Source of the DNA: Amaurobius ferox
Taxonomy: Eukaryota > Arthropoda > Arachnida > Araneae > Amaurobiidae
NCBI GenBank assembly: GCA_951213105.1
Contig: OX578149.1
Location: forward strand, 868,001 to 932,000
Length of the DNA stretch: 64,000 nucleotides
Direction of reading: 5' to 3'
The translations under genes and the position numbers were made by a program. Positions 110-62,247 of this stretch are shown here, piece by piece. Under the pieces are notes generated by a model. The model had not been told where the DNA came from, made no database searches, and saw only the letters and a program-made list of their open reading frames with translations. The stretch's first letter is position 1, and every line of letters starts with the position of its first letter.

Positions 110-177
110 CCGGCCGTCCAAACAGTTACCTTACACCTTTCTGGTAGGTCGGACGGTTTGGGTCTCAATAACAACAA
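110..177 (+). mobile_element. Stem-loop mini-element, subtype B, or the 3' end of a longer element
   Basis: It begins CCGGCCGTCC and ends with GGTCGGACGGTTTGGGTC followed by a CAA-rich tail. The 5' CCGTCC pairs with the 3' GGACGG. The internal segment (GTTACCTTACACC, then TGGTAGGTCGG) matches the separate insertion at 54673-54723, and the closing stem and 3' end match the subtype A insertions at 45244, 49550, 60320 and 60391. No target-site duplication is visible here, so this copy may be the tail of the repeat at 1-109. Confidence 0.6.
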
Positions 178-12053: not shown

Positions 12054-12766
12054 TTGGACTATTCGTGCCAGAGCAAGCAAGCAGTTTGAGTTGAGAAGGG
12101 ACGCTACGGATCCTGGATTTGGATCCGAAATGACGACTGACGAAAGGAAAATGAATAATCGAGCATTAACTTTTTAATTAACTTTTCTGTTTCTTGTTGT
12201 GGATGATACGTATTAGATGATATTTAGATGATTGGACTATTCGTGCCAGAGCAAGCAAGCAGTTTGAGTTGAGAAGGGACGCTACGGATCCTGGATTTGG
12301 ATCCGAAATGACGACTGACGAAAGGAAAATGAATAATCGAGCATTAACTTTTTAATTAACTTTTCTGTTTCTTGTTGTGGAGGATACGTATTAGATGATA
12401 TTTAGATGATTGGACTATTCGTGCCAGAGCAAGCAAGCAGTTTGAGTTGAGAAGGGACGCTACGGATCCTGGATTTGGATCCGAAATGACGACTGACGAA
12501 GGGAAAATGAATAATCGAGCATTAACTTTTTAATTAACTTTTCTGTTTCTTGTTGTGGATGATACGTATTAGATGATATTTAGATGATTGGACTATTCGT
12601 GCCAGAGCAAGCAAGCAGTTTGAGTTGAGAAGGGACGGTACGGATCCTGGATTTGGATCCGAAATGACGACTGACGAAAGGAAAATGAATAATCGAGCAT
12701 TAACTTTTTAATTAACTTTTCTGTTTCTTGTTGTGGATGATACGTATTAGATGATATTTAGATGAT
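12054..12766 (+). repeat. 178-bp tandem repeat inside copia gag, four copies
   Basis: Four nearly identical units start at 12054, 12232, 12410 and 12588, exactly 178 bp apart. Each contains ATTCGTGCCAGAGCAAGCAA and GGATCCTGGATTTGGATCC. In one frame a unit reads IRARASKQFELRRD and ends in DDERKMNNRALTF-like sequence, which resembles copia gag. A 178-bp unit is not a multiple of three, so the expansion shifts frame and destroys gag. The few differences between copies imply a late duplication. Confidence 0.95.
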
Positions 12767-41699: not shown

Positions 41700-42140
41700 T
41701 AGTAGTTATAAATTGGGGGTTGAGGGCCACTTCGGGGAGGTGCAGCAGGAGGAGAGTCCCTCTTTGGGGAGGGGATTTCCCTCTTTTGGGAGGATCCTCT
41801 CAGAGGGCCTTTAGACCCTCAGGAGGGAAGATACTCTCTGCAGACCCCCGTCTTTTGGGAGGGAGTTTCGTGAGGCGGTGCAGCACCGGATGCCTCTTTC
41901 GAAAGAGGCCTGATGACTCATACCCTCGGAGTGAATTGTCTTGAGAGGGGATGACACTTGACCTGAGGAACTTCGAAAGTGGTTTCAAGGAATGTCGCAA
42001 TCAGCGATTGCACAATCTGGAAATGACGTGTCGCTGACTGCCCTTTCACCGGAAGACGTGTCGCAATCGTCGATTGCACAATCACAGGAGCTCTTAGCAC
42101 ACGTCCTCCCTCGACGCTGGTCAATGACAAAGTGATCGTT
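41700..42140. other. GC-rich, purine-biased island in intron 3
   Basis: This stretch stands out from the AT-rich intron by repeated GGGAGG, CCCTC and CTCTTTTGGGAGG-like blocks. It contains the perfect palindrome GCCTCTTTCGAAAGAGGC near 41891. At about 41998 and 42062 it has two copies of a CGCAATC..CGATTGCACAATC motif. The short ORFs on both strands are Arg/Gly/Ser-rich and look compositional. It may be the body of a SINE whose head is at 42244-42308, but that is a guess. Confidence 0.4.
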
Positions 42141-42308
42141 CTTATCAGCGTGACGTAGTTAAAGCGCCCTCTGGCGAAAGTTGATGAAGTGCTGCCATCT
42201 ATCGGCATTTTTTTCCCAAAAGAATTTAACTTCTCACTTGTCAGATACGGGACTCGAACTCGGAACCATCCGATTACAAGAGTGTCGTCTTACCCGCTAC
42301 GCCCCGGC
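42141..42308 (-). mobile_element. tRNA-derived SINE-like repeat
   Basis: On the minus strand, 42308-42244 looks like a decayed tRNA-Thr (TGT anticodon loop CTTGTAA). It has an A box region GCGTAGCGGGTAAGACG and a B box GAGTTCGAGTCCC. The acceptor strands do not pair, so it is not a functional tRNA. The adjoining body (42141-42243) recurs at 46557-46660, where the tRNA head is missing. Shared blocks include GCGCCCTCTGGCGAAAGTTG and TGCTGCCATCTATCG. Confidence 0.7.
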
Positions 42309-44911: not shown

Positions 44912-45838
44912 TCACAAATAAGTGATGGTAGAAAGCTTATAGTGTCCTTTATTTTTAATATTTGAGCAGGAAGCCACTCTATAAATATACTTTCTCAAAG
45001 TTAATGTTGTTAACACACTAATGTTGTTAACACAATTCATTAAACATGCTATTTGATTTTTATTTAAGGTAATATGACACTGCGTTAGACAAAATTTAGA
45101 ATCGTATAATTGAATTATTTTCTGCAAATGCAGTTTTCCGTTGTCATTGAAACAGAACAACTCATTGCGACTGACGAAAGAGGTATCTGCATATAGAACA
45201 TTGAACGACCACAATTTTTGAGAAAATTCACTCCATGTAGCAGCCGTCCGTCCAAATAGTTGCTCTTAGTCCTCTGGACGAGTCGGACGGTCTGGGTCTT
45301 CTACACTCCATGTAGCAGGTGACAGTGTAACGCCTTCATGCGTAGGCTGTAATTCATTTCGCTTGTTAGAGAGATATTTCCATATATACACTTTTAACTT
45401 CCCATGGCGAAGTTTCAAATATACATACACATCAGAACTTAAATGCCAACGACGGAGCGTATCTTGCATAAAATCTGAAGAAGCAGATTCAATCGAAACT
45501 GATTCTGTAGTGGAGGATAACACTCCGCTATGTGTTAGAGCACAAGAAAGCAGATCTTGAGTTGAGTTTTCAATCTCGGTGTGAACTTGTGAATTGACAA
45601 TGGTAGATGTTGCAGGTGGAGTTATGGAAGGCATACGATAAGTCCCTAACCAATCCACAGCAATCTTTTGTGAGGGTGAATTCATCCCATCTGAGACAAT
45701 GTCCACAGATTTTGCTTTTTCTAGGGCAGGAACAGACAACTCCATAGTATTTCCACTAGAAATTATTTCTTCGAGTGATGGCATACTCTGAATTTTAGAC
45801 ATTATTTTTAGATAGTAACACCCAACTACCACATTCAA
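44912..45838 (-). pseudogene. Antisense ORF with a possible PC4-like domain, interrupted by a 60-bp mini-element
   Basis: On the minus strand a frame runs from 45838 down to 44912, 309 codons in all. Its only stop (TAA at 45268-45266) lies inside the mini-element at 45244-45303. The N-terminal 120 residues are Ser/Thr-rich. The segment VYVYLKLRHGKLKVYIWKYL, then THEGVTLSPATWSEF, resembles the strand-strand-GVxLxPxxW pattern of the PC4/p15 coactivator domain. That assignment is tentative. Element plus duplicated target is 75 bp, exactly 25 codons, so frame is kept on both sides. Whether this is a live gene, a retrogene or part of a mobile element cannot be told. Alternative starts exist at 45838 and at the second Met, 36 bp further in. 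Confidence 0.5.
45244..45303 (+). mobile_element. Stem-loop mini-element, subtype A (60 bp)
   Basis: A 60-bp insertion flanked by the perfect 15-bp duplication CACTCCATGTAGCAG (45229-45243 and 45304-45318). It begins CCGTCCGTCC and carries the inner stem GTCC-TCT-GGAC. It then has GAGTC and the closing strand GGACGG, and ends TCTGGGTCTTCTA. A duplication of this length and a directional 3' end suggest target-primed reverse transcription rather than a cut-and-paste transposase. Confidence 0.85.
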
Positions 45839-46405
45839 AGTATAAGATTTAGTTTTAAAACACTAAGACCTTAAAACACTATAAATTTGTCACAGCTATG
45901 AACGAACCGAACCTACCCACGCAATGCCCAAGGTTGAAATGTCTTCTCGGGCCACGTCATAAGTATAACCGCGTGACCTAAATCGAGTGTCGTGTGCAAA
46001 CAAATCACATAAGATATGAAGTGATTAGAACTTGTAATTTTTAATGAATCGTACAACATTAGATTGTGCTAAATGTAATTCTTATCTACATGGGAAAATT
46101 TCTACAGTATTTTATTCATCTTCGAAATCATAGAGTGAAAATATGTACCAAACTTAGTTAAAGTTCCAAATTTTAAATCACATTAACATTAAATACTTCG
46201 AAAAATTTTGTATATTTTTATAACTTTAGGAGATATGTATCGCGCAGAATATACGCGAATAGCAAAAACACGAAAATAACTATGAGGTCTTCATCAGCCC
46301 ACACCCAAACTAGAAATGATCGATATACACACCAATTACAACACTAAGATGATAGCTTATGAGTTCTTATCTAAGATTTCACCTAAAATGACGTCATCTC
46401 TCCAA
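45839..46405. other. Intronic stretch without recognised features
   Basis: AT-rich sequence directly upstream (on the minus strand) of the antisense ORF. No clear promoter motif or repeat is visible. Confidence 0.4.
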
Positions 46406-46526
46406 AGTTCACAAGATTCAAGATGACCATATTTTTTTTTAATTACTTCTTAATTTTTATAATTATTTAAGGGATTTAAAATTTATTAAGGGATTTAAAA
46501 AAAATACGGTCATCTTGTGAACCTTG
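46406..46526. mobile_element. Short inverted-repeat (MITE-like) element
   Basis: CAAGATGACCATATTTTTTT at its left is answered by AAAAAAATACGGTCATCTTG at its right, giving an imperfect hairpin about 120 bp long around an AT-rich loop. The internal GGGATTTAAAA unit is duplicated. Nearby GATGACGTCATC and ATGACGTCATCTTG suggest further related termini. Confidence 0.55.
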
Positions 46527-46556
46527 GACCAATGACGTCATCTTGTGTGACCGTAT

Positions 46557-46660
46557 CTTATCAGCGTGACGTAGTTAAAGCGCCCTCTGGCGAAAGTTGA
46601 TGAAGTGCTGCCATCTATCGACATTTTTTTTTCCAGAAGAATTTAGTTTCTCACTTGTCA
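46557..46660 (-). repeat. Second copy of the SINE body at 42141-42243
   Basis: It shares more than 100 bp with 42141-42243, including CAGCGTGACGTAGTTAAAGC and GCTGCCATCTATCG. The tRNA-like head seen in the first copy is absent. Confidence 0.85.
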
Positions 46661-47335
46661 TGACTGCATCTCACTTGATTTCTCACTTGATATGACTGCA
46701 AGATCAATTATTTTACCCATTGGAATACCAACTTGAGTTTAAACGCACAACGTAATTTAATCGTAAATCACTTGAACAGATACAGATTATTAAACTCATC
46801 TATTACAGAATTTAATAAATGCATGATGCATTTAATTAACGGAACTCGGGAACAATCATATCCCTTCCGCTTTGTCCAGCACTATTATGATGTTTTTTTC
46901 AGAAAATATTGTGATAAAAATTATGTTAATTTATCCGACATCCTGGAATACAACTTAACTCTTACCTAGGATTATTTGATTGTTTCACATCCAGAATGCT
47001 CTATATATTAGACGCGACTTTTTTATGTATGCTTTCCTATCCGAAGTTTATACGCTTTATGCAACTCTTCCATGATTCTCGTCTTGCTGGTTTGTAAAAT
47101 TTTCAATTTTATTGTAATTTTGATCATTTTTATGTTGTCTAGGATTCGGCTATTTTTTCCCCACGGACATGTTCGATTGTTGTTTCGGGCGTGTCTCTGG
47201 GAGCGTTTTCATGAAGTCAAATCTAGCTTCTAACCAGGAAATAGGGGTCGCAATCCCCCTTGACCTTTCTCCAACCCTGTAAACACAATCATTCCACCTA
47301 TATTTTTCATTTTAAATCTTATATATATATATATA
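46661..47335. other. Intronic stretch left of the mariner
   Basis: It holds a 78-aa forward ORF (46733-46969) with no domain I recognise, then AT-rich sequence ending in a TA tract that supplies the mariner target. Confidence 0.4.
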
Positions 47336-48786
47336 GGGTGATCCAAAAGTTCTTGACACATTTTAAAATTGAATATAAACTCAAGTAATTGCCGTACGAA
47401 AGTGAGGTTTGGACTAAAATGCTTTTCACGTTGAAAAGTTTTGGTTAAGCAAATAAAAATTTAGTTCTAAACTTTGGCCATAGATGGCGCTACTTGTTCA
47501 AATGTTTGTATATCTGCGTTTTCTTTCAGATTGGTTTTGACACTGTCACTGAGAAGTAAGAAATGACAACTCCTACCGAAAAATCTCATTGAGTAGGCTC
47601 GTACTTTGAGACTAAATCCATCATTGCAGTTCAAAGGAAGTTTCGTGCCAAGTACAAAAAAACCCCTCCATCTCGAAACAGCATTTTGGACCGGCATAGC
47701 AAATGTTTAGAAACTGGAAGCATTTTGGATTGAAAAAGAAGTGGCCGGCCAAACACATCCGAACAAAATGTTGCGACAAACATTTGTTTCCAGTCCAACC
47801 ACATCAATGAGGAATTCATCACGACAATTAGATATTCCACTTACAACAGTGCATCCAATTCTACATAAAAGATTGAAGTTTCAAGCATACAAAGTGCAGC
47901 TACTGCAAGCTTTACAGCCGAATGACAAGCCGCGCCGTTTGAACTTTGTTATTCAGATGCTTGATCGTATGAAATCGGATGATGAATTCTTACGACGCGT
48001 TCTCTTTATAGACGAACCAACTTTTCGTTTGACTGGAGAGGTCAACAGGCACAACACAAGAATATGGGGATCTGAAAACCTTCATCAGGTTATTAAAAAG
48101 ATCCGCGATAGTCCAAAAATTAACGTGTGGTGCGGCTTAATGTCTGATCGTTTTTCACTAAAACTACAGTCACAAGAGAAGTTTACCTGGATATGGTGCA
48201 AATGTTCGCTGTCCTTCAAGTTTGTCATTTGCATCCTAACATTTTTTGGCAGCAGGATGGTGCACCTCCACATTGGGATAAAGTTGTAAGAGATTATTTG
48301 AATGAGGAGTTTCCTGACCGATGGATTGGACGAGATGGTCCATCGTTATGGCCACCTCGATTTAACCCCTCTTGATTTCTTCTTCTGGGGCTATGTCAAA
48401 GACAAAGTGCACGCTTCCGCTATGGCTGACATTCAAGTACTAAGGACGGGAATCACGCATGTAATCCAGTCTCTTCCGCAACAAATGCTAGCGAACACGT
48501 GGAGGGAAATGGAGTACCGTTTGGATGTGGTTCGAGCTACAAAGGATGCACATATGGATGCACAAAGGATGCATATGCTCTGTAACTACTCGCCTTCAGT
48601 TTTTATGCTGTTTTTGGTATTTTTAAGGTACAGCGCTATTTATGGACAAAGTTTGGAACTAAATTTTTTTTATTTGCTTAACCAAAACTTTTCAACGTGG
48701 AAAGCATTTTAGTCCAAACCTCACTATCGTACGGCAATTACTTGGGTTTATATTTAATTTTAAAATGTGCCAAGGACGTTTTGATC

Positions 48787-48790
<4 letters not shown>
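47336..48790 (+). mobile_element. Mariner element (DD41D, rosa-like) with 140-bp terminal inverted repeats
   Basis: The element is bounded by TA on both sides (47334-47335 and 48791-48792). Its ends are inverted repeats of about 141 and 144 bp (47336-47476 and 48647-48790), starting GGGTGATCCAAAAGTTCTTG and GGGTGATCAAAACGTCCTTG. Inside is one transposase remnant on the + strand. Total length is 1455 bp. The target lies within a TA microsatellite, which extends for 66 bp on the right. Confidence 0.92.
47563..48590 (+). pseudogene. Mariner transposase, frameshifted
   Basis: It begins MTTPTEKSH and carries the N-terminal block SIIAVQRKFRAKYKKTPPSR, then SRQLDIPLTTVHPILHKRL and KVQLLQALQPNDKPRR. 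The catalytic pieces are FIDEPTF (first D), WQQDGAPPH (second D, in another frame) and LTPLDFFFWGYVKDKV (third D). In intact relatives the last two aspartates are 41 residues apart, which defines the DD41D group. At least three frame changes and an early stop after nine codons make it inactive. Confidence 0.88.

Positions 48791-48856
<66 letters not shown>
48791..48856. repeat. TA microsatellite (33 repeats)
   Basis: A pure TA run abutting the right end of the mariner and containing its target duplication. Confidence 0.98.
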
Positions 48857-48857
<1 letters not shown>

Positions 48858-49049
48858 CATATAACAATGAAAAAAACTGAGTATATACCATTGGCATATA
48901 AATGCTCATGTAATGATGAAATATATTCTGTTGCAAAGAAATATATGCACCCATAAGAAATTGAATTACAGCCGCGAAACTCATTATCGTTTGAGGAAAT
49001 ATGCAATATATATTAAAATTTGAAAGAAAGAAAAAAAAACCCATTTTAT

Positions 49050-49770
49050 TAAGAAATGGTGGCAGCAATGGCATTCTAGTAAGCGATAAATTCTTTTTTG
49101 GTAAGTCGGTATTCTGTGCGGCATATTGTCAATTAAGTTGCTTATGTCGCTCTGCAGAAAATTCTGCCACACATATTGCAACTGGTCAGGTAATTCTGAA
49201 AATACTGCAATTGCCAATTCAGAATGTCCCCGCCGTGTTTGTTCTATTGATGTCTCAACACATGGGTGGTCAACGGAGGGACATTGTTAAGAAAGTCGTG
49301 CATGTGTCTTTGAGCGTTGTATTGTTGGTAAGTGGGCATTGGGCAGCTCGACAGCATAGGCAGAACAGTCGACTGCAGAATTTCGCCGACGTACAAGCGA
49401 GCCGCCAGATTGGTTTGCAACACAACTAATGGAGATCAGCTGTTCCACAAGATAGCTCCCCAGACTGTCACATCACGTGTGATGGCCGTGTGCTGCTCGA
49501 CAGGAAATGTAAAATTGAAACGCCGTCAGTTCTCCACACATGTATGCTGCCGGCCGTCCAAATAGTTGCTCAAGTCCTCGGACGGTTTGGGTCTTCAACA
49601 CATGTATGGTATGCTGAGGCTCTGCTACATGTGCCTTCCGATACGTACCACCAGCTTCCCTCAGGCTTACGATGCGACCTCTCTCTAAATCAGACGTATC
49701 GCTGTCAAGTACTTCACAACTTGCAGTATCAAACAGAAAATCCATTTCCAATTGCCCGCGAGTGAGAACA
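49050..49770 (-). pseudogene. Tc1-like transposase remnant, interrupted by a mini-element
   Basis: On the minus strand the N-terminus reads LERGRIVSLREAGGTYRK (near 49690), the first helix-turn-helix of a Tc1 subfamily. After the insertion at 49550 the catalytic core resumes in another frame as VEQHTAITRDVTVWGAI and LYVGEILQSTVLPML. QQYNAQRH follows near 49290, where active relatives have QQDNARPH. The second catalytic Asp is therefore Tyr. The C-terminal piece SDISNLIDNMPHRI is near 49120. A central part between helix-turn-helix and core is deleted. Confidence 0.75.
49550..49597 (+). mobile_element. Stem-loop mini-element, subtype A, shortened
   Basis: It begins CCGGCCGTCC, has the AAATAGTTGCTCAAGTCC segment and ends GGACGGTTTGGGTCTTCA. 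It lacks eight bases (GAGTCGGA or equivalent) between the two GGAC motifs, as expected from slippage between them. The flanks share ACACATGTATG at 49536-49546 and 49598-49608. A small GTAT duplication follows on the right. Confidence 0.78.
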
Positions 49771-49799
49771 TAGCTCGTTACGCTGCGCATTCTCATGTG

Positions 49800-50062
49800 C
49801 TTTGTATGAGCCCTATGACATCATTGGCGTTGAAAGTTCAATGATTTGCATAACTCTTAAAACGGCGTTTGCGTGTTTTGCAACAGAGTGTATTAATAGC
49901 GTGAGATATAATTGACTGAGGGCGACATAAGATAGAGATTATGAAAGAATTGAGTACGTCAATTGGGGAAGTTTAAAATTTCAGTGTGTGTTTGTGGAAA
50001 TACTGGATGCAAATGTGTATCTATCATTGTCAAAATTTGCTTGAAATGTTCTTCTGTTGCAG
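49800..50062. other. 3' end of intron 3
   Basis: Unique sequence leading to a pyrimidine tract and the TTGCAG acceptor of exon 4. No repeat is recognised. Confidence 0.5.
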
Positions 50063-50150
50063 GAGGAAGTGTACAAGAAGACTACAAAAAAGCTAGTGGA
50101 AAATGTGGTCGAAGGTTACAACGGCACGGTCTTCGCGTATGGAGCGACAG
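50063..50150 (+). CDS. KIF19: Kinesin KIF19-like, exon 4 (start of the P-loop)
   Basis: It encodes [20 protein letters not shown] followed by [10 protein letters not shown], with one base of the last Gly codon carried over to exon 5. The VY..T helix and [10 protein letters not shown] strand are hallmark kinesin elements just before the P-loop. The acceptor is TTGCAG ending at 50062 and the donor GTAAGT at 50151. Phase 1 exit matches exon 5. Confidence 0.93.
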
Positions 50151-51083
50151 GTAAGTACTGCCATCTGACAGTGTTTCCGTGTCTTCAGAAAATGACCGCA
50201 GAGCTTTAAATTCCTAAAAAAGGTTTAATGATTGGAATTGAAAACAAGCAAGAAATGCCTCACCCAAGACTGTTTAATATATCTCTATCTCCAACTACTT
50301 GTTTCTGAATGCGGTTCCCTAGAATCTAAACAAAAGTATCGCCCAAATGACCGGTATAAGTTGGAATAAGATTGGAATAGGGAAAGCGCCACATCGCAGT
50401 TAAGACATGAAAAGTACCCGCATGACAGAATGGTACGCGGCCAGTCAAGTTCAACATTCCATAAATGGAAGTAATCTAAACGCTTCTAACTGTGTTCCTT
50501 AACCAACTGGGAAGTACTCGCATATATGGATGGTCGTGTCTGTGATACTGTGTTTCAGGAGTTGACAGACATCCGTGTTAAATACGAATCTCTTTTATAT
50601 TAGCATGTGGTACCAGAGAAGAACAATTGGATCCTTCGCGTAAAGCCTGTCATTTCGAGCTTATACATTAAACTTAATTTTTGTTTATTTATTAATTGGA
50701 TAATTATGTACTACAATTTAAACCCACAAGACCTTCTGCAGGTAAATGTTATCGCATGCTAGGATATACTCTTTTGAATGGACGTCATTCCAAATCAACA
50801 CGGCGCTTGTTGAAATTAGGAAGCTAATCGCATACATTTCGAGCTAGAATGAAACTTGAATTAAGAGTAATATTACAAATTGGAGGAAGCAGCCGGTTAT
50901 TTGAGCTTATTTACCTGAGTCTTTCTCTTTCATTACTTTGATGCAAATGGAAATATTAGTTAAATGTATTTTTTTTTTTTGTCAACCTGGATATGTAACT
51001 TGACTCTAAGGGTTCCATTGCAAATAGTGTTCGTCTTCTTGTGCAATTTTTTCTTGAAATAGTCAACCTGTATATACTAGAAG

Positions 51084-51945
51084 CAGTGGTGTAGTCGTAA
51101 AAAAAAAGGTGGGGGGGACGCTCTTTTTTTGAAGAATTTTAGCCAATACTGTATAATTTCTGTGATTGACATAGGGCTGGGAAGTATCGCGATACAAGTA
51201 TCACCCATGCAAAATGTCTTGAGTAACGACCCTAGTCTCTAAATGTATCGTGGATTTTGTATTGAGATACTTTTTCAATTGTATCCAGTTTTTTTTTCTT
51301 TTTTTCTTCTTCCCAACTCGAACTCTTAACATGTTGATAAAATCAAAAGAATAATAATTATTTTAATTTTATTTAGTTATTTATTAAAAACCAAAAATTG
51401 TGCTCCAAAGCATATGATTCTCAGCTCAAGAAAGAAAAATTAATTAAGATTCCTGCATTTTGAAATGAAATTATCTCAAAGAACTTTCCATAGGGATACT
51501 TTTTCATTGATTACATTGATTACTCATTGAATACATTGATTCATTGATTACATTGATACTTGTCATTGATTTCTCTAATGATTTTTTTAAAGCTTTTTAG
51601 CTTTGGAAAATTTCTAAAATCCGAATGTAAATAAAATGTAAATAACATTTTTTGTCTACAAACGTTTTTTTTTTTCTAAAAAAAAAACGAAAACCGGTTA
51701 TTTTTGTAATAAGCGCGATCCTTATCCATATGTTTTTTCAGAGGAAGAGTGACCAAAGAATAATAATCTGAGGCCATCGGCCAAGCATTCCATCTATGCC
51801 AAGCTGCAGAGGGGTTATATATGTATATATAAATTTTTAAAAAAAGAGCGTCCCCTTACAAAATAAAAAGTGGGGGTACGCTTGAGATCAGGAAAAAAGG
51901 TGGGGGGTCTGCGTCCGCCCGTGTCCCCCCTCGACTACACCCCTG
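51084..51945. mobile_element. Non-autonomous hAT element with 8-bp target duplication
   Basis: The left end CAGTGGTGTAGTCG and the right end CGACTACACCCCTG are imperfect inverted repeats extending into G-runs on the left and C-runs on the right. The element is flanked on both sides by ACTAGAAG (51076-51083 and 51946-51953), the 8-bp duplication expected of hAT. The 862-bp interior has no transposase. It contains the palindrome GTATCGCGATAC near 51185 and AT-rich filler. Confidence 0.87.
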
Positions 51946-52814
51946 ACTAGAAGACGTGCGATACAACGACTATCCGAGGAAATCAATGAACGTCGTGTCC
52001 AGCGCTGGGAAGAACGACAACGTCAAACGTCACAGTGAATCGCAAACGGAACCAACGAATTGAGTGACTGTGGTATTGGAATACGAATAATAAAAGGATG
52101 GAAAAAAAGATTCGCATTTTAATGCCCTCCCCCCTAAAGAAAAAGAATGTCCCCCGATAATTCACCTTTGTTTGAATGTTGATTCATAATGTGTCTCGTT
52201 TTAATTTATTAATTTTGATGATTTTGACTTATGTTATTTCGAAAGATTATAACACTAAGGGCAAAACAAATAGAGCAAATCAGGTATTTACCACGGGCAG
52301 GTGTTACATCAAAGGATTTAAAACTAGAATAAAAAAGGAGCTAGAGTTATATAAAAGCATTATCTGTATCACTGCATAAACAGAGGTCTTGTCTCTCTAT
52401 TAAAGAAAAGCTCGGTGCTCTTTAATCGTCCTTAATCCTTAATCATTAGAGAGATTTTCTGTAAAGGCTAGCGCTGGACTTAATGCAATTTGGCATGATG
52501 ATTCCTTTTATACAATTTTCAAGTGAACATTTTTTGCACTACATTTGTATGAAAATGTCTTTGTTGTATCTTCAAAATCTAATCTTTCATTGTTGAAAAC
52601 GCTGTTGCTACTGCCAAAAAGGTATTATTTACGTTTATTTATAAAAGGTACTACGTTACGACAGTGGCGGATTTCAGGAGGGGCGATCGAGGCGATCGCC
52701 CCCCTCAAACGCCTGACAAATGTCGACGTTTTATCAAATAAATTATAAAATTAAAAAATATATATATATAATTAGGTAGATACTTTGGCCTTGCTCTCCC
52801 TCCCTCAGTTTATC

Positions 52815-53605
52815 CACGAAATTTCGCCCTCATAATAAAAGTAAAAAGAAAGCTCGAGATGCTGTCTCTGATGCAATTACGATTATAAGTGAATGTAAGA
52901 AAAATGTGGAATCCGATTTCGGGAATATATGCAGAGAGGTTGAGGGAATGTGTAATGATCTTGGAATTGAAACAAAAATACCACGTACTGCTGGACGCCA
53001 AGTTCATAGATCAAATGCTCCTAACATAACTCCTGAAGATTATTACAGAATAAATGTTTACTTGCCTTTGTTAAACTCCGTCCAAGAAGACTTAAAAGAC
53101 CGATTGGCACAGGAAAATCTGGATGTCTTCTATTTACAAGATTGAGTACCATCGACTCTTTTAGCGAAAATCAACACGGACGAAGAGGCACTCCTCACAT
53201 CTGGGACAGAGCTAAGCAAGAAGTATCCCAGAATAGCCGAACTGGGAGTGGAAGAAATGAACAGTACACTTCAAGTTGAAGTGATAAACTGGAGAACCAA
53301 ATGGATGCGAAAAAATACCGATACCGGCAGAATACACAAGTCTGCTTTTGAAGCACTACGAAACTGTGATCCTGCAGTGTACCATGTGATGAGTTCTTCT
53401 AACATTACTAATTACTGTAGCAACCACCGAGGGTAACTTCTCAGCACTCAAACGATTGAAGACATGGCTTCGAAACACAATTAGAGGAGATCTGCTAGTG
53501 GGATTGACTTTGTTGCAGGTGCATTATGATATCGCAATTTCACCAGTAACAATTTTAGATCGATTTGCTAAAGAAAATGCAAGAAGACTTGAGCTGATAT
53601 TATAA
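52815..53605 (+). pseudogene. hAT transposase (ZMYM/52K-repressor type), C-terminal part
   Basis: The ORF at its start contains GIETKIPRTAGRQVHRSNAP and ITPEDYYRINVYLPLLNSV, typical of hAT proteins whose C-terminal halves resemble ZMYM1 or the 52-kDa repressor. After a stop the frame continues with SKKYPRIAELG. It ends, after a frameshift, with NFSALKRLKTWLRNTI and LLQVHYDIAISP, the hAT dimerisation region. The N-terminal BED finger and the first catalytic residues are missing. It is inactive. Confidence 0.85.
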
Positions 53606-53728
53606 TGATGATCCTTCCTGGGAGGTTAACGGCGCCAGGGTTTTTAAGAAGGACTCCGTAAGGCTGTTAGGGATAATGATCGATAATAAGCTGAATTGGC
53701 AATTGCATTTGAATAGTGTTATAGGTAC
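53606..53728 (+). pseudogene. Reverse transcriptase scrap of a LINE
   Basis: The frame reads VRLLGIMIDNKLNWQLHL, resembling the VKxLGxxxDxxLxW motif in the C-terminal part of Jockey/CR1-type reverse transcriptases. It begins right after the hAT stop codon and is cut by the foldback element at 53731. Only about 40 codons remain, so the clade is uncertain. Confidence 0.55.
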
Positions 53729-53730
53729 TA

Positions 53731-54294
53731 CCCCTGGCAAAAATTATGGAATCACTTCCATGTTATTTCAATGGGATACGAAGTTCAATACCCTACAATT
53801 TTTGATGCACAGATACCCTGAAAAACCCTTTTTGAGCGAAATTGAAGAACTTTAAACGCTTAACAAAACAAAAAATATTTGAAAAATTTTGCACTTTTCA
53901 TTATTTAATAATTGACGATCAAAAAATGGGAAAAAAGCTAGAGGTTGAAAGAAAAAACTCGTAAAAACTAATTTGGAATAATAAATTTGATCATGGAAAA
54001 TCACAAAGATATAGCTCCTCATGTTTATATGATCAAATTTATTATTCTAAATTAGTTTTTACGAGTTTTTTTTCTTTCTGCCTACAGCTCTTTTCCCATT
54101 TTTTGGTTGTGAATTATTAAATAATGAAAAGTGCAAAATAGTTCAAACATGTTTTATTTTGTTAAGTTTTTAAAGTTCTTCAGTTTCGCTCAAAAAGGGT
54201 TTTTTAGGGTCTCCGTGCATCAAAAGTTGTAGAGCATTGAACTTCGTATCCCATTGAAATAACATGGAAGTGATTCCATCATTTTTGCCAGGGG
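53731..54294. mobile_element. Foldback MITE with Tc1-like termini
   Basis: The two halves (about 53731-53998 and 54030-54294) are nearly perfect reverse complements around a short centre. The element starts CCCCTGGCAAAAATTATGGA and ends with its complement. TA lies on each side (53729-53730 and 54295-54296). It has no ORF of its own. The 564-bp length and TA target fit a Tc1/mariner-mobilised foldback element. Confidence 0.9.
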
Positions 54295-54672
54295 TAGTAA
54301 ACTCGATCAAACCATTGGTCTTTTCTTTTGATGTTTTTGCGTGATGTTTTTGCGTGATGTTTATACGTGATGTTTTTCGCGTAAAAATTATTTGATTCCT
54401 GTGCAGCTAAAAATGTAAAAAAATGGGAAAATGTAAATCAATGTTCAGTGCTTATTAATACCTATATTAACTGCATTTACTCATGTTCATCCTCCTTTTC
54501 TACCGCAGTCTAAGAAAAATATAATTTATTTGTATTGTATTGTATGATAACCATATTTAGTGAATAGAATATAAATGTATGTTTATTTAGTTAATATTCA
54601 GTATTAATCTTCTCATATGGAAATCTCTTACTTGTGTATACTTTTGTGTATACTTAATACAGAATATAATTT

Positions 54673-54723
54673 CGGTTACCTTACACCTTTCTGGTAGGTC
54701 GGACGGTCTGGGTCTCAACAACA
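54673..54723 (+). mobile_element. Stem-loop mini-element, subtype B (51 bp)
   Basis: It is flanked by the perfect 14-bp duplication ACAGAATATAATTT (54659-54672 and 54724-54737). It starts CGGTTACCTTACACC and ends GGACGGTCTGGGTCTCAACA plus CA. Compared with 110-177 it lacks the segment between the first CGG and GTTACC, so the 5' strand of the outer stem is gone. Confidence 0.85.
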
Positions 54724-55626
54724 ACAGAATATAATTTAGTTTCCTGTTTCGACTTCAACAATAAGTTTGTTTCCTTATATAGTCACGTAATTTTTTCCCT
54801 CCAATCTTTATTGTTTTGCTTTGGTCTTAAAAAAAATGATAGGCCGTAAGCTAGAAAGAACTTACTATAAACTTCCGAATTTGTTCTAGTTATTTCAAAA
54901 TTCTCAAATATCCGTATATAGGAAGCCGTTAAGAAAATCCTAAGTGAACAAACCATTTCGATCTACAGATCGCCCCCCTCCCTAAACAAGAGGTCAAAAT
55001 CCGCCACTGCGTTACGAGCAAGTTCTTTGTTTTCCCTGTATAAATATATCTAGAAGCCGTATCGCATAAATAGAAAGTCGGTTAACATAAAACGTCCCCA
55101 GAGGTATGCCTGAAAGAAGAACTGTGTTTCTTCCGCCCCAAACTAACGAATATTTGTAAGTTCCACTCTGCACGACTACTAGTTCAGACCATCAGATAAA
55201 ATATTTGTATCTGGGCTACAAAATGTTGGTTTTGAGTAAAATATAATGGAGCTAGATAGCGCATCAAGCCCAAATTCAGCACTGTTATCAAAGAGAAATG
55301 ACTGACAGTATAATCCAATTTTTAAAACCTTTTTAAGAGAAGTTATTTCTTTATGATTTATTAAACTTTGAAAATCCTTAAGGGTGTCCACTATTGATTC
55401 GGCACTCTACTTTTAGTTTTGCTGTGACGGATGAATTTAAAGCCAGATTCAAAGCGGACTATTGACTTTGTCCCTGTTTAGTTTGTGATGTTCGCAGGTA
55501 ATTTTAGAGAATATAAAAAATTCCGTTTTATGAAAATTTTTTATACTAGTATACTGCAGTGATCAGTTGCAATTGAGTGTTTTTATTAAGTACACGTGCT
55601 TTTGAAAAATTATAAAATAGATTTTA

Positions 55627-55673
<47 letters not shown>

Positions 55674-55901
55674 GGGTGTTCAGAATTAAAACACCCCTAA
55701 TCTGAGCTCTCTATACATCGAACTACTCAGTGTAAAGACTCCAAAATTGTTGAACCTACTATTCAAGACATGGGGAAAGGGATTACACGAAAAAAACATT
55801 AGTTCCAGAAACACCGATAGGTGGCGCTGTACAACAAAAAATATGCTGAAAAGACACAAAATATACGTTTGTAACACATTTTATTCGAACGTACCAAACA
55901 T

Positions 55902-56770
55902 TCATATCTCAAGGACCTTATCGATGCAGGGAATGCTGCTCAATATGGGGTTCTCTTCTTCAAGATGTAAAACCTGCAGTTTGTGGACAGCTTGTTCAAC
56001 TGCGGATCGTAATGGGTCGATTGAGATGCTTCTCACATGCAGAGTGATACTGTCTTTCAAATCTGCCAAGGTTACCAGACGTCCTCGATAAACAAGACTT
56101 TTTAAGTATCCCCACAGCCAAAAATCACAGGGATTAAGATCTGGAGAACGAGATGGCCAGGTTGTCGGAAACGCACGACTAATTACTCTACCATTAGTAA
56201 AATGTTGCCGAAGAAACTGCTGTACACAGAGTCCAATGTGTGGAGGCGCTCCATCTTGCAAAAAGGTAATTGAATCAAGACATTGGTGCTGTTGCAGTTG
56301 GGGTACAACAAAATTTTCGAGCATGTTTGTGTACCTCCTGGCCGTCACGGTGCATGTCACAGGGCCATTGGGAGTAGCCTCTTCGAAAAAGAAAGGTCCA
56401 AGAATGAATGTGGCTGTGAATCCACACCAGACTGTAACTTTCGGTGAGTGAAGTGGAATCTCTTGGAATGTACGAGGGTTTTTCGTGTCCCAAATGCGAC
56501 AGTTATGGGTGTTGACTGTTCCACGTAGATGGAAATGCGCTTCATCGCTCCATAGAATCTGCCATGACCACGATGCATCCACTTCAACTCTAGCCAGAAA
56601 TGTCAATACAAAGGTCAGTCGCTGCTCCCTGTCGATGGTCAGCAAGTGGTGATTGTGACTAATTTTGTACGGGGAAAAATGCACTATGTTTCTCAGTACG
56701 TTCCGCACTGTGCTGTAGGGAACGCGATAAGGCAGAAGGTATGCCGATTCAGAACATTCAGAAGTAATCT
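55902..56770 (-). pseudogene. Mariner-family transposase, left arm
   Basis: The minus-strand frame contains NVLRNIVHFSPYKISHNHHL, WSDEAHFHLRG with the first catalytic Asp, and KVTVWCGF. It continues with LQDGAPPHIG (second Asp) and SPDLNPCDFWLWGYLKSLVY (third Asp). The core is open and all three acidic positions are present. The helix-turn-helix N-terminus is missing, so DNA binding should be lost. The spacing between the last two aspartates is 42 residues. Confidence 0.88.
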
Positions 56771-57411
56771 ATCATGCCACACGCCAAACGTCGTTTTATC
56801 GCCAGTTCTGGTTTATTCTTCATACACCTGCAATTGGAGGGGAAAGACGAATTGTTCAATAAAGAATATTGTTCATAATTTGATTGCATATCAGATTGCG
56901 TAAGAGAATGTCGTTAGATACAGTTGTCTTATCAAAGTATACAGTAGCATTTCAAATACTGGTTTGATTATTTATAAATCAAATAACAATCCGACTAATG
57001 TGGTTTTCAAGTAATACTATTAGAATACATGTATTTAAGAACTTTATGTACTGCATACGGATTGTTTGAAATTAGTTAAAGAAATGTTCGACACACATAC
57101 ATATAATTTATTATTTGAATAAAACGAATTGCAGTACATAAAGTTCTTAAATACATGTATTTTAATAGTATTACTTGAAAACCACATTAGTCGGATTTTG
57201 ATTTATAAATAATCAAACCAGTATTTGAAATGCTTCTGTATACTTTGATAAGACAACTGTATCTAACGACATTCTCTTACGCAATCTGATATGCAATCAA
57301 ATTATGAACAATATTCTTTATTGAACAATTCGTCTTTCCCCTCCAATTGCAGGTGTATGAAGAATAAACCAGAACTGGCGATAAAACGACGTTTGGCGTG
57401 TGGCATGATAG

Positions 57412-58260
57412 ATTACTTCTGAATGTTCTGAATCGGCATACCTTCTGCCTTATCGCGTTCCCTACAGCACAGTGCGGAACGTACTGAGAAACATAGTGCA
57501 TTTTTCCCCGTACAAAATTAGTCACAATCACCACTTGCTGACCATCGACAGGGAGCAGCGACTGACCTTTGTATTGACATTTCTGGCTAGAGTTGAAGTG
57601 GATGCATCGTGGCGATGGCAGATTCTATGGAGCGATGAAGCGCATTTCCATCTACGTGGAACGGTCAACACCCATAACTGTCGCATTTGGGACACGGAAA
57701 ACCCTCGTACCTTCCAAGAGATTACACTTCACTCACCGAAAGTTACAGTCTGGTGTGGATTCACAGCCACATTCATTCTTGGACCTTTCTTTTTCGAAGA
57801 GGCTACTCCCAATAGCCCTGTGACATGCACCGTGACGGCCAGGAGGTATACAAACATGCTCGAAAATTTTGTTGTACCCCAACTGCAACAGCACAAATGT
57901 CTTGATTCAATTACCTTTATGCAAGATGGAGCGCCTCCACACATTGGACTCTGTGTACAGCAGTTTCTTCGGCAACATTTTACTAATGGTAGAGTAATTA
58001 GTTGTGCGTTTCCGACAACCTGGCCATCTTGTTCTCCAGATCTTAATCCCTGTGATTTTTGGCTGTGGGGATACTTAAAAAGTCTTGTTTATCGAGGACG
58101 TCTGGTAACCTTGGCAGATTTGAAAGACAGTATCACTCTACATGTGAGAAGCATCTCAATCGACCCATTACGATCCGCAGTTGAACAAGCTTTCCACAGA
58201 CTGCAGATTTTACATCTTGAAGAAGGGAACCCTATTGAGCAGCATTCCCTGCATCGATAA
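57412..58260 (+). pseudogene. Mariner-family transposase, right arm
   Basis: This is the mirror copy of the left-arm protein, open from after a TAG at 57409 to the TAA ending at 58260 (282 codons). It differs by a few substitutions, for example WRWQILWSDEAHF, and by a different C-terminal tail caused by a small indel. The catalytic aspartates are in WSDEAHF, MQDGAPPH and NPCDFWLWGY. The N-terminal DNA-binding region is missing here too. Confidence 0.88.
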
Positions 58261-58514
58261 GGTCCTTGTGATATGAATGTTTGGTACGCTCGAATAAAAT
58301 GTGTTACAAATGTGTATTTTGTGAGTTTTCAGCATATTTTCTGTTGTGCAGCGCCACCTATCGGTGTTTCTGGAACTATTTTTTTTCGCGTAATCCCTTT
58401 CCCCATGTCTTGAATAGTAGGTTCAACAAATTTGGAGCCTTTACACTGAGTAGTTCGATGTATAGAGAGCTAAGAGTAGGAGTGTTTTAATTCTGACCAC
58501 CCGGTATAATATAT

Positions 58515-58803
58515 TATCGTAGTATTATGATAATTCTAAAATTATTACCGAGGAATGTATCGCATTTTAGAGATGTTTAAACCAGGCAATTTATATTTCA
58601 CTGCCGTCATTTGAATGAAGTTCATTTTTTTCGATGAATGTTTAAGTTTTCAAGTATAATAAATTAATGCAGTATTGTGTTAAGTTTTAATATATTACCG
58701 ATGAATGTTATGCACATTTTAGACATGTTTAAATAAAATTACATTGAAATTGGAAAGTGTTTCATAATCAATGCTTTATGCATGAGTGATTTTTCTTGTA
58801 TAT
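58515..58803 (+). repeat. Dispersed repeat related to the 3' end of intron 1
   Basis: It matches 4190-4428 without any exon following. It comprises a longer unit (about 58630-58800) and a shorter related one (about 58530-58600) sharing the GCATTTTAGA and ATGTTTAAA motifs. Confidence 0.7.
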
Positions 58804-59271
58804 TCATAATCTGGACCAACGCAGTAAAAAAAAAAGTCCATTTTTATCTATTAGGTTCGGAGAAATTGCATTTTTTGTAACGCTTCGATTACCCCAAACG
58901 TAGATGTAATTCACATTATAATAATAATAATAAGCCTTCAAGAAAAGGGTATCGAGTTTCAGCTGTCATAGTCTCAGAGGCCAAATTGTCTGACAACTTG
59001 GCCATTTTTCAGAAAACTACTTTTAAGTCGTTTTGTAAATTAAAAATTCCTATTTTATAGTAGAACAATAGTCTAAATAGGAAAAGTTGCATTGCCAAAA
59101 GGTAATTCTATAGGTATGTGCACTTTTTATTTTTTTAATATTTTGATTAAGAAAAACTGTATTTTGTCGTTAGACTACATGACCATAATGGTTTACTTAG
59201 TGTGGCTAAGTAATGGTTTAGACCCAATGAAAACATATAATGCATTCTAATTATACTTTTTGCATTTCACT
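58804..59271. other. Unrecognised intronic stretch
   Basis: AT-rich sequence with a short ATA/ATT run near 58920. No ORF or repeat is recognised. Confidence 0.4.
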
Positions 59272-60303
59272 TTACAATAACAAACTAATGTTGAGAACCA
59301 AACTCTTGACTGTCTGATTGGGAACTCTTCGAATGATTCTCCGATTCCTCCAGTTCAAAAAGTCGTGATGTATTTGTGGTTCACAAACTAAGGAGCGAAA
59401 TGAGATCGTTGTACTTCTCGTTGGATATTGAAACAGGTTCTTTCTATTTGGCGGCGTGTCAAGAGCGTTGAATTTCAAAGAGCGACCACGTTGTTTCTTC
59501 TGTTTCAAATAGTTTGAAATGTTAGGCTGTGATCAAGTGCATATTTAAATTTCATTTCTTGCTTTCATTCTTCCATTCGAATGCTAAGTTTCGTTTTTTC
59601 CGCTCTTTTCTTTCGAAATGTGAACTTCTGTAATAGCCATTGTAAATTTTTTATATCATCAGTTGTTACACGACGACCATGAAATGCTGACGGTTTCATG
59701 CGGGCGTATTTTATAAGTCCAAGCCACTCCTCTGCTGTGTAAATACATAATACCATTTTCTTTTTTTTCTCTATTTGTGCAAAGTCACTGTCATTTGGTA
59801 AGAAGGAATGTCCCGATTCCATATACTTGTGATCCCAGCATTTTATATTGAGCTTTTCTACCGCTTAAAATGTCATAGACACTATATATTTGTTCCGGTT
59901 CCGTCCATCTGTCGAATCACTGTAAGAAACAACGTGAAGATCTTCAGTTGACAATGCATGACTGAAGATATTTCTCTCTGCACTAGCTCTTCTCTTTGTT
60001 TCATTTTCTAGCCAAATATTCATGGTCTAGGTTATGGATTCCCAGGTTGTCGAGCCATAGCTGCCTCTTGTAGAATACTTTGTTTGTGTTGATGTAGGAA
60101 ATTGGTTGCGTGTTTTCTAAAACAAAGGCAAACGCAATAAATGTGTTCTGTTATTTCCTTCGCTCTGGCGTTGTCAGCACGGAGGCTTTCGCGAGCTAAA
60201 TCTGCTACGCTATGATGATCGTTTCTCAGCTTTATTGTTGCCTCCAAAGTCTGTGGATCCTTAGCTAATTCAGCCGTTTCAATAATGACACTAAAACTAT
60301 TAC
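59272..60303 (-). pseudogene. Remnant of an uncharacterised arthropod repeat-family protein
   Basis: Read on the minus strand, 60303-60032 contains LAKDPQTLEATIKLRNDHHS and LARESLRADNARAKEI. 59822-59565 contains ESGHSFLPNDSDFAQIEKKK followed by GRRVTTDDIKNLQWLL and FTFRKKRAEKTKLSIRMEE. The GHSFLPNDSDFxxIE motif is, to my recollection, typical of a multicopy arthropod protein family probably linked to a transposon. The central DDE-like part expected between the two segments is not readable. A third ORF (59508-59272) may be the C-terminus. The family assignment is from memory and is tentative. Confidence 0.45.
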
Positions 60304-60319
60304 ACATATTGCAGGTACC

Positions 60320-60376
60320 CGGACGTCCAAATAGATACTCAAGTCCTCAGGACGAGTCGGACGGTCTGGGTCTTCA
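60320..60376 (+). mobile_element. Stem-loop mini-element, subtype A (57 bp)
   Basis: It is flanked by the perfect 16-bp duplication ACATATTGCAGGTACC (60304-60319 and 60377-60392). It starts CGGACGTCC, has the inner stem GTCC-TCA-GGAC, then GAGTC, and ends GGACGGTCTGGGTCTTCA. Its right duplication overlaps the start of the next mini-element, so it inserted at the edge of an older copy. Confidence 0.88.
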
Positions 60377-60390
60377 ACATATTGCAGGTA

Positions 60391-60448
60391 CCGGCCGCCC
60401 ATTTTGCTGCTCCGTGTCCTCGGACGAGTCGAACGGCCTGGGCTTTCG
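60391..60448 (+). mobile_element. Stem-loop mini-element, subtype A, older copy
   Basis: It starts CCGGCCGCCC, has the inner stem GTCC-TC-GGAC, then GAGTC, and ends GAACGGCCTGGGCTTTCG. The flanks share TGCAGGTA, with ATT against CAG upstream, so the duplication is decayed. GGCCG at the 5' side pairs with CGGCC at the 3' side, a pairing kept although both strands differ from the other copies. Confidence 0.75.
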
Positions 60449-60479
60449 ACACAGTGCAGGTATCAGTCTTCGGCACATA

Positions 60480-60697
60480 AAACAATACATCTGGAAATGC
60501 CGTTTTAAACAACGTCTAGTACAAGGAAAGCGACCTTTTGCTTGTTGGCCGCTGTTTGGGAATTGCGTCCATAAGCGTGAAGTTACAGAATAGTGTACTT
60601 TGAAGCATTCAGCCACTTCTCCAATAGAATGGCCGGATTCTAACCTGCCCACGGCTAGTCATCGCTGACCATCCTCTAAACGTCTTTTTTGAGACAT
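60480..60697 (-). pseudogene. N-terminal fragment of a Tc1-like transposase
   Basis: The minus-strand frame starts MSQKRRLEDGQR, a stop, then LAVGRLESGHSIGEVAECF and VTSRLWTQFPNSGQ, the paired helix-turn-helix of Tc1 transposases. The catalytic domain is absent. Sequence to its right (60700-60898) has no recognised feature. Confidence 0.72.
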
Positions 60698-61507: not shown

Positions 61508-62247
61508 GTATCATTTCTCTCATCATTCATTTTCTCTTTGCTTTCGTAAAGACCAAACTTTATCAAAACTACTCTCATATTAAAATAGCACTCACTTTAA
61601 AGAAAGCAGCCTCAGCTCCCAAAGGCAGAAAGTGCATAGAAACAACCACATCGTCCGATCTACTCGCAATGGTAAAGTCTCTGTTTGGACGACCGGAATA
61701 GATAGGTCTGGAAGGTATTGAAATGACAGCCTCGCGTTACGCCGACGGAAAGGAGATTTGAAATAAAACTCAAATGAGGAAAAGCTGAGACATGAGAAAT
61801 AGTATAAATAGAGAAAGTGACATAAAAATTAAGATAACTTTATTCAAAATCCCCGAAAATGTGTAGTCAATAATATAATGAAGAAACTTTATAACTGAAA
61901 TCTAACTTCGTTCGGAATTCAACTTTATTAACATTCGATCTAAAAAATGAACTTGAATGAAGAGTGATATTACACATTGGAACAAGTACCCGGTTTCGGA
62001 CTAACCTTATCCATTAAATGGCATTTCATCCAACCGCCTTAAAATGACATTCAAATAAAGCTGGAATTGAGAAGAAAGGAAATAACAAAATGATCCCAGT
62101 TGAAATAAATAAAAACGTCTACGAAAATCGAGCTCAGAGGGAGTGTGGGTAAGAAAAAACGAATTTTTGGTGCTTCATCCACTGCATTCAAATAACTTTA
62201 TGAAAAAATACCCAAATATAATACTTTTTAAAATTGTTCATTTTTAG
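61508..62247 (+). other. Intron 5 of the kinesin gene
   Basis: A 740-bp AT-rich intron from GTATCA to TTTTTAG. No mobile gene is present. A stretch near 61955-62000 is similar to 50850-50900. Confidence 0.85.

Follow-up and report, generated by a model that had tools for sequence, protein, structure and literature searches.

Putative headless retroposons of about 60 bp and a SINE family with the same type of 3' hairpin in the spider Amaurobius ferox

Copies in the 64-kb window

The window (the whole 64-kb stretch of DNA that was analysed) contains seven copies of a short element ending in a hairpin and a short tail. Five had been noted from the letters alone, and all five lie at the positions then given. 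Fuzzy scanning and a covariance model added two, at 110-171 on the plus strand and at 61636-61696 on the minus strand, and the next-ranked match after the seven was at chance level. We number the copies K1 to K7 by position; all features described below, except K7, are on the plus strand.

K1 (110-171; 76.2 bits with covariance model R1) is the subtype B 3' hairpin and CAA-type tail of a tRNA/5S-type SINE. Part of the SINE body lies upstream of it at 1-109, and the element runs past the start of the window. The GC content of this part is 57%, compared with 38% in 200-2000, and alignment of the 109 nt with the SINE body from other loci scored 105 (shuffled maximum, 13).

K2 (45244-45303), found with the covariance model, is a hairpin-only retroposon of subtype A, which starts at the hairpin base between the two copies of a 15-bp target duplication (45229-45243 and 45304-45318). 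K3 (49550-49597), found likewise, is also of subtype A and also starts at the hairpin base, with its inner hairpin partly deleted. Its duplication (49536-49546 and 49598-49608) is exact over 11 bp and is followed by a small slipped repeat. K4 (54673-54723; covariance model) is a subtype B tail truncated on the 5' side within the internal loop, and its 14-bp duplication is at 54659-54672 and 54724-54737.

K5 (60320-60376; covariance model), another hairpin-only copy of subtype A, and K6 (60391-60448; 62.4 bits), a more diverged subtype A relative, are two insertions at one site. The 5' duplication of K5 (60304-60319) is 15-16 bp long, its last one or two bases being ambiguous with the start of the element. 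The segment at 60377-60392 is both the 3' duplication of K5 and the 5' duplication of K6, and the 3' duplication of K6 (60449-60462) has diverged, matching exactly over 8 bp, or over 14 bp if 2 mismatches are allowed. Exact flanking duplications of 11-16 bp were thus confirmed for four of the five noted copies (45244, 49550, 54673 and 60320). A common start of the four subtype A copies, also proposed in the sequence-only reading, was found at the hairpin base, for 49550 only if the three intervening bases are counted as duplication.

K7 (61636-61696, minus strand; 60.8 bits) is a diverged copy that starts at the hairpin base. One of its outer-stem pairs is changed on both sides, from C-G to U-A. 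When the flanks of K1 and K7 were compared, no recognisable target duplication was found (matches of 3 and 5 bp). Exact matches of at least 11 bp occurred by chance at 34 of 3,000 random window positions; 18 of the 34 were 44 bp long, and these are very likely tandem repeats.

The 3' hairpin and its subtypes

The 14-mer at the 3' end, GGACGGTCTGGGTC, had 96,004 exact matches (47,806 + 48,198) in the 3.56-Gb genome, while the reversed 14-mer, used as a control, had 4 (2 + 2). Twenty of the loci that we read came from a list of 100 14-mer matches, of which they were numbers 2 to 21, all on C1; this sample is biased to young copies with an exact 14-mer. The hand catalogue comprises 20 copies of subtype A, 39 of subtype B and 7 of subtype D, with 5'-end offsets and classes judged by eye. 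K7, L038:9754, L026:7163 and a fragment, L017:410, were omitted as unclassified or chance, and two A copies (L045 and L027), two B copies and three D copies carry no offset measurement.

The common hairpin consists of a 10-bp outer stem, an AAAYAG-type internal loop, which is asymmetric and of 8 nt, and an inner hairpin. Among 14 tested pairs, 7 were altered on both sides (30 cells, compared with 8.3 ± 3.4 in shuffles), and paired cells amounted to 93.5% in the true register and at most 43.5% when the register was slid. These compensatory changes support conservation of an RNA stem-loop at the 3' end. The count of further pair types was not above that of shuffles (reached by 270 of 500, and by 474 of 500 in the other run), and folding of single copies was not unusual, with z-scores of -1.2 to +0.9 in six of the seven copies. 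Within the window, the folding energy was -18 kcal/mol for K1, -17.6, -22.1 and -19.7 kcal/mol for the three intact A copies, and -13.1 kcal/mol for K3 with its deletion. A and B have the outer stem and the 3' end in common, and paired changes set their inner hairpins apart.

An Rfam search of the whole window at the gathering score gave no match, and the best score of a permissive search restricted to 60250-60500 was 12.1 bits (E = 2). A likeness of AAATAGTTGCTCAAG to the pistol ribozyme, closest-looking in the copy at 49550, was dropped on the lack of an Rfam match, that copy being covered by the gathering-score search only. HDV-like, hammerhead and H/ACA folds were judged by eye and discarded. 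Exact hairpin patterns had no match in the viral and prokaryote collections; a looser pattern occurred in 8 viral contigs, for which model scores of 8.8-14.2 bits (E of 0.14 or worse) indicated chance.

In subtype B the hairpin ends an ordinary SINE. A SINE body was present in 27 of the 39 catalogued B copies; the whole element is about 285 bp long (283-287) with a tRNA-like head and about 385 bp (382-385) with a 5S head. The 5S rRNA head scored 100 bits in two copies, L024 and L033. The tRNA-like head was recognised by eye from A/B-box-like sequence, and neither ARAGORN nor Rfam called a tRNA there. We compared the 120 nt upstream of the hairpin with the SINE body in 12 of the 39 B copies, 10 of the 20 A copies, 3 of the 7 D copies and K7; the score was 105-120 in 10 of the 12 B copies. 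The idea of a family without any head had therefore to be given up for subtype B, which accounts for two of the seven copies in the window.

For subtype A, in contrast, no SINE body was found in any of the 20 catalogued copies (0/20 against 27/39 in B; Fisher 1.1e-7, a contrast based on the hand-catalogued sample). Upstream scores were 6-10 in 9 of the 10 A copies compared; the tenth scored 42, which we read as its nested neighbour. In the A and D copies compared, the upstream sequence was not the SINE body, and no head with an RNA polymerase III promoter was found. The 5' end lay no more than 1 nt from the hairpin base in 11 of the 18 measurable A copies, inside the hairpin in 5, and upstream in one by 19 nt and in one by about 8 nt; the hairpin base is a mode and not absolute. 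These data bear out a discrete class of about 60 bp for subtype A. A continuous spread of 5' truncations from one long LINE had been named as the pattern that would speak against such a class. On this count the outcome is mixed: a spread was seen in B, down to remnants of a few tens of nucleotides, but it starts from a SINE, and A has some truncated copies but a clear mode. Genome-wide, there were 4,347 exact A 5' halves, and the last six bases of the one SINE body tested preceded the hairpin in 31 of them. This implies that a SINE with an A-type tail, present or past, could be a parent of A.

Target sites and insertion

Target duplications at 28 catalogued sites, which were entered by hand, were 10-15 nt long (14 nt in 12 of the 28), and all began with AC. 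In the flanks of these sites, C was found at -1 in 23, A at -2 in 20, T at -3 in 17 and A at +3 in 22, giving TAC|ACA as the preferred target. Positions -8 to -10 were A-rich, and T was found in 13 of the 28 only at -14. Seven of the 28 sites had been used repeatedly, with two to seven insertions each and one site with seven.

The 3' end was fixed and truncation was on the 5' side, with the exceptions of an inverted pair (L045) and two copies broken at the 3' side (L016 and L029). Duplications were absent in K1, K7 and some further copies. With duplications of variable length, a fixed 3' end and a preferred nick sequence, the elements match retroposons of the target-primed (non-LTR) type. Retroposition with a fixed 3' end, as first proposed for the window copies, is upheld by the duplications at the 28 sites and by the covarying structured 3' end.

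Origin of the hairpin-only copies

No LINE sequence was found upstream of the tail in the copies read, in the window and about 0.30 Mb of other stretches, and no LINE linked to the tail was found among the ORFs scanned with Pfam (10 of 45 listed long ORFs in the stretches read, and 10 window ORFs). Locus L029 has a LINE-type RNase H fragment, cut by the end of the stretch. Since no LINE with the hairpin tail was seen, we only infer the part of a LINE in what follows.

We give a little better than even weight to the explanation that the 60-bp elements are headless retroposons, composed of a 3' recognition hairpin and a short CAACA-type tail as also found on a SINE family, and inserted by target-primed reverse transcription with a LINE enzyme. 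The endonuclease would nick the bottom strand at the preferred target, and the freed 3' end in TGT would pair with ACA in the RNA tail. The reverse transcriptase would recognise the hairpin and copy about 60 nt, ending at the 5' stem base, which is the position of the commonest A 5' end; the duplication would result from a second nick at a distance of about 14 nt. The hairpin does not block copying in general, because B copies usually continue through it into the SINE body with its tRNA-like or 5S head. For this reason we favour an A template RNA that itself begins at the hairpin base, e.g., a processed 3' fragment. Points against this explanation include the A 5' ends that depart from the hairpin base and the 31 body-linked A hairpins; moreover, a headless insertion brings along no promoter, which leaves the origin of new copies unexplained.

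The A copies might instead be extreme 5' truncations of a long element with an A-type tail, either a LINE or a rare SINE, on which reverse transcriptase mostly halts at the hairpin base. This is a real possibility, short of an even chance. LINE 3' stem-loops that are common to SINEs are well described in the part of the literature drawn on here (PMC5135761). Truncations occur throughout the hairpin in both A and B, 31 A hairpins are preceded by the last bases of the SINE body, and one D-type copy reaches 35 nt further upstream with its own duplication. However, the B hairpin was passed in 27 of 39 copies though that of K1 is about as stable as those of the intact A copies; the 10 A copies compared had no upstream sequence in common save for nested-neighbour pairs; and a halt after the full stem has been unwound and copied would be mechanically unexpected. 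A spread of truncations in B, and the outer stem and 3' end it has in common with A, would also fit short copies that are randomly truncated tails of the tRNA/5S SINE, with A as one of its subfamilies. This is very unlikely and already disfavoured by the lack of a SINE body in A, the A mode at the hairpin base, the paired changes that separate the inner hairpins and the small number of body-linked A hairpins. CCGTCC and GGACGG resemble inverted repeats, as in a MITE-like DNA transposon with a terminal inverted repeat; duplications of unequal length (10-15 bp), truncation on the 5' side only and a 3' tail that lies beyond the inverted repeat make this extremely improbable.

Coming back to headless retroposition, the data suggest that a recognition hairpin alone can be copied and inserted at new places. 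A bolder form, which we put forward tentatively and regard as rather doubtful, is that a promoterless hairpin RNA of about 60 nt, cut or released at the stem base, is the successful retroposon itself. It would be the smallest SINE-like element, consisting of the reverse transcriptase recognition hairpin only, with the same nucleotides hit repeatedly over long periods.

LINE copies in general are truncated on one side and have a fixed 3' end. Subtype A departs from such ordinary 5'-truncated copies in the sharp mode of its 5' ends and in having no class of longer copies among those sampled. In Helicoverpa armigera, the tRNA-headed SINE HaSE1 and the 5S-headed chimera HaSE3 have body and 3' tail in common, the tail being that of HaRTE1.1, and truncated HaSE1 copies of 75-356 bp have duplications (PMC3272025). 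Subtype B resembles them in that tRNA- and 5S-headed SINEs share body and tail; the excerpts of that paper describe no tail-only class with a fixed 5' end, and in that species a similarly tailed LINE is known. UnaL2/UnaSINE1, ZfL2 and SART1 need a conserved 3' stem-loop for retrotransposition, in UnaL2 together with a short repeat tail (PMC5135761, in the sections cited). The likeness to these stringent-type pairs lies in the stem-loop and, for UnaL2, the tail; here, however, the stem-loop alone makes up most A insertions, and its structure, with the asymmetric internal loop, is another. Bov-B and Sauria SINE, of the RTE clade, are a case in which SINEs are inserted by a LINE whose cleavage signature is defined, and their duplications start with A (PMC13295347). 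As given in the portion of that paper used, the signature has T before A and T residues about 10 nt upstream, whereas here C mostly precedes and the corresponding region is A-rich; the RTE signature was rejected as a match to the 28 sites. No report of hairpin-only tail elements was found in the open-access literature, and the relevant parts of PMC9191728 and PMC10600911 held nothing further that bears on them.

If hairpin and tail suffice, these copies would represent, in thousands of variants, a minimal substrate used in nature by a LINE reverse transcriptase, with the paired changes marking key bases. The genomic copies could then reveal the recognition requirements of a stringent LINE enzyme, and RNAs of 60 nt could serve to test them. 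Elements this short could easily be overlooked in repeat annotation. The repeated use of sites, including the one with seven insertions, provides a natural map of endonuclease preference.

Copies in the window and in the genome

Re-reading of the window sequence confirmed the five short insertions described in the sequence-only reading (starting at 45244, 49550, 54673, 60320 and 60391, all on the forward strand), with duplications matching their description. Two further copies, at 110-171 (+) and 61636-61696 (-), emerged when the window was scanned by local alignment and with a covariance model. We refer to the seven copies, in order of position, as K1 to K7. In the covariance model they scored 37-81 bits, values that are not independent since the model was trained on these same copies, and the next match scored 7.9 bits (E 5.1); the missing eighth copy is an independent result.

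The window occupies positions 868001-932000 of contig 18 in a genome of 3.56 Gb and 276 contigs. Genome-wide, exact GGACGGTCTGGGTC was found 47,806 + 48,198 times, compared with 2 + 2 when the word was reversed. Run on 21 stretches of 10 kb from contig 1, the covariance model gave 29 matches with E values up to 5, all but one of which had an E of 0.056 or lower; a further 85 kb gave 10 matches with E up to 1, including seven with 1e-6 or lower.

A hairpin supported by covariation

The copies share a fold with a 10-bp outer stem carrying one bulge, an asymmetric internal loop of the AAAYAG type and an inner hairpin in which a 2-3 nt bulge separates a helix of 4 bp from a second one of about 4 bp. 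Support for this fold is covariation, not single-copy energy. The folding energies of the seven window copies were unexceptional (z-scores -1.16, -0.86, -0.87, +0.87, -2.06, -0.41 and -0.07), and the minimum-energy folds of K4, K6 and K7 differ from the shared structure. In a MAFFT alignment of 19 chosen copies, two-sided changes were seen in 7 of 14 tested pairs, in 30 cells compared with 8.3 +/- 3.4 in shuffles, and pairing was 93.5% in register but 43.5% or less once the partner strand was slid; these figures count cells rather than independent events, because the copies are related and include some from which the structure was drawn. The count of further pair types in this alignment was not above the shuffles (270 of 500 reached the observed value). 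The second inner helix was omitted from the 19-copy test because of a one-base alignment shift in shorter copies; in the seven window copies it was 75% paired with two two-sided changes.

The outer stem is CGTCC/GGACG in subtypes A and B and CACAC/GTGTG in subtype D, and the first inner helix is GCTC/GAGT in A, ACCT/AGGT in B and ACCA/TGGT in D.

SINE tails and hairpins without a body

Subtype B forms the 3' end of a SINE, about 285 bp long, whose tRNA-like head contains A- and B-box-like sequences, although no tRNA was called there by ARAGORN or Rfam. In two copies, L024:6400-6777 (-) and L033:1267-1644 (+), the same body and tail follow a 5S rRNA head (100 bits), and the element is longer, at about 385 bp. 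The two forms parallel HaSE1 and HaSE3 of Helicoverpa (PMC3272025). In the window, K1 is of subtype B and runs upstream into a match to the SINE body (score 105 over the 109 nt present; shuffled maximum 13), and K4 is a subtype B copy without the 5' half of the hairpin. Tails are of the GAAGAA type in more diverged SINE copies (L009, L018, L015:226) and CAACAA in others, a possible sign that the tail repeat has changed in the course of time. Two SINE copies (L016:5644-5676 and L029:1015-1047) stop at the same hairpin point and continue into similar unrelated sequence.

In a hand catalogue drawn from the window, from random stretches and from 20 loci that each had a 14-mer at the centre, the SINE body was present in none of 20 subtype A copies and in 27 of 39 subtype B copies (Fisher 1.1e-7). 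The earlier proposal that the elements have no visible tRNA or 5S head holds for the catalogued A copies but not for B. In nine of ten A copies compared, the upstream 120 nt scored 6-10 against the body; the score of 42 in the tenth was read as a truncated SINE nested beside it. Genome-wide, the exact A 5' half occurred 4,347 times (control 0), and in 31 cases (0.7%) it followed CACTTC, the sequence with which the SINE body ends, a count that covers only CACTTC-ending bodies, to which an A parent with another body is invisible. A hairpins linked to the SINE body therefore exist but are rare. The body was absent in subtype D too (seven copies catalogued, three scored against it); one D copy (L009:6238) is extended upstream by 35 nt that again resemble a hairpin.

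The sequence-only reading had the four A copies that it described starting at one place. Among 18 catalogued A copies with a measurable 5' end, 11 began at the hairpin base or no more than 1 nt from it, two began upstream (by 19 nt and about 8 nt) and five inside the hairpin, so the shared start is the commonest one but not universal. At L045, two A hairpin pieces lie in opposite orientation within one target duplication, an arrangement resembling the outcome of twin priming or of a template jump.

Target sites and mode of insertion

Duplications of 10-15 nt were found at 28 sites and started with AC at all of them. The first-nick consensus, from a site list hand-typed from the loci, is TAC|ACA. 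The tail ends in ACA, so on the 3' side the element may supply part of this motif; the 5' duplication copy and upstream flank are host sequence, including the C at -1 in 23 of 28 sites. Tandem elements parted by the same duplication occurred at 7 of the 28: seven elements at L011/L030, four at L037, three at L017 and two each at K5/K6 (60320-60376 and 60391-60448), L033, L039 and L044. The K5 duplications are identical and the outer K6 copy has diverged, so the two seem unequal in age. Chance sharing was estimated at 0.4-17% of copies, depending on the assumed copy number and target-word length; two-fold nesting by itself therefore says little, whereas seven or four insertions at one site would not be expected by chance. 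Such reuse points to strongly preferred targets, in use over a long time.

The duplications, fixed 3' end, 5'-sided truncation, nick motif and conserved hairpin fit target-primed reverse transcription, as the sequence-only reading had suggested, by the enzyme of a putative hairpin-recognising LINE. The ...TGT end of the target would pair with the RNA tail, and the LINE reverse transcriptase would recognise the hairpin. Recognition of a 3' hairpin is likewise described for stringent-type LINE/SINE pairs (PMC5135761). The unusual feature here is subtype A, which contains hardly more than the recognition hairpin. Its 5' ends could result from a reverse transcriptase stopping at the hairpin base, but in the majority of the B copies catalogued the enzyme read on past the hairpin. 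For this reason we favour, only moderately, an A template RNA that itself begins at the hairpin base.

Several other features were seen. The window contains a satellite array (20242-40624) in which a 305-bp unit is repeated 67 times and a shorter array (12054-12766) with a 178-bp unit repeated four times in tandem, both with 99% matches, and a repeat of about 105 bp at 42140-42243 and 46556-46660 with a 75-nt core 99% identical. An ORF at 45269-45862 (-), whose 3' end overlaps into K2, matched Pfam AcMNPV_Ac109 weakly (20 bits, cut-off 25; E 4e-4); a protein search with it returned no homologues, and the match is probably chance or a remnant. Two inverted mariner-like copies (55668-58508; 98% over 1039-bp arms) carry degraded transposase ORFs whose nearest named relatives are in spiders (Trichonephila, Araneus), the best single match being a metagenome protein; these relatives make an arthropod host likely. 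Elsewhere, a LINE-like element is represented by an RNase H fragment cut off at the stretch edge (L029:9270-9998), and a reverse-transcriptase ORF at L023:7064-8173 (28 bits, Pfam cut-off 29.6) appeared Penelope-like by eye.
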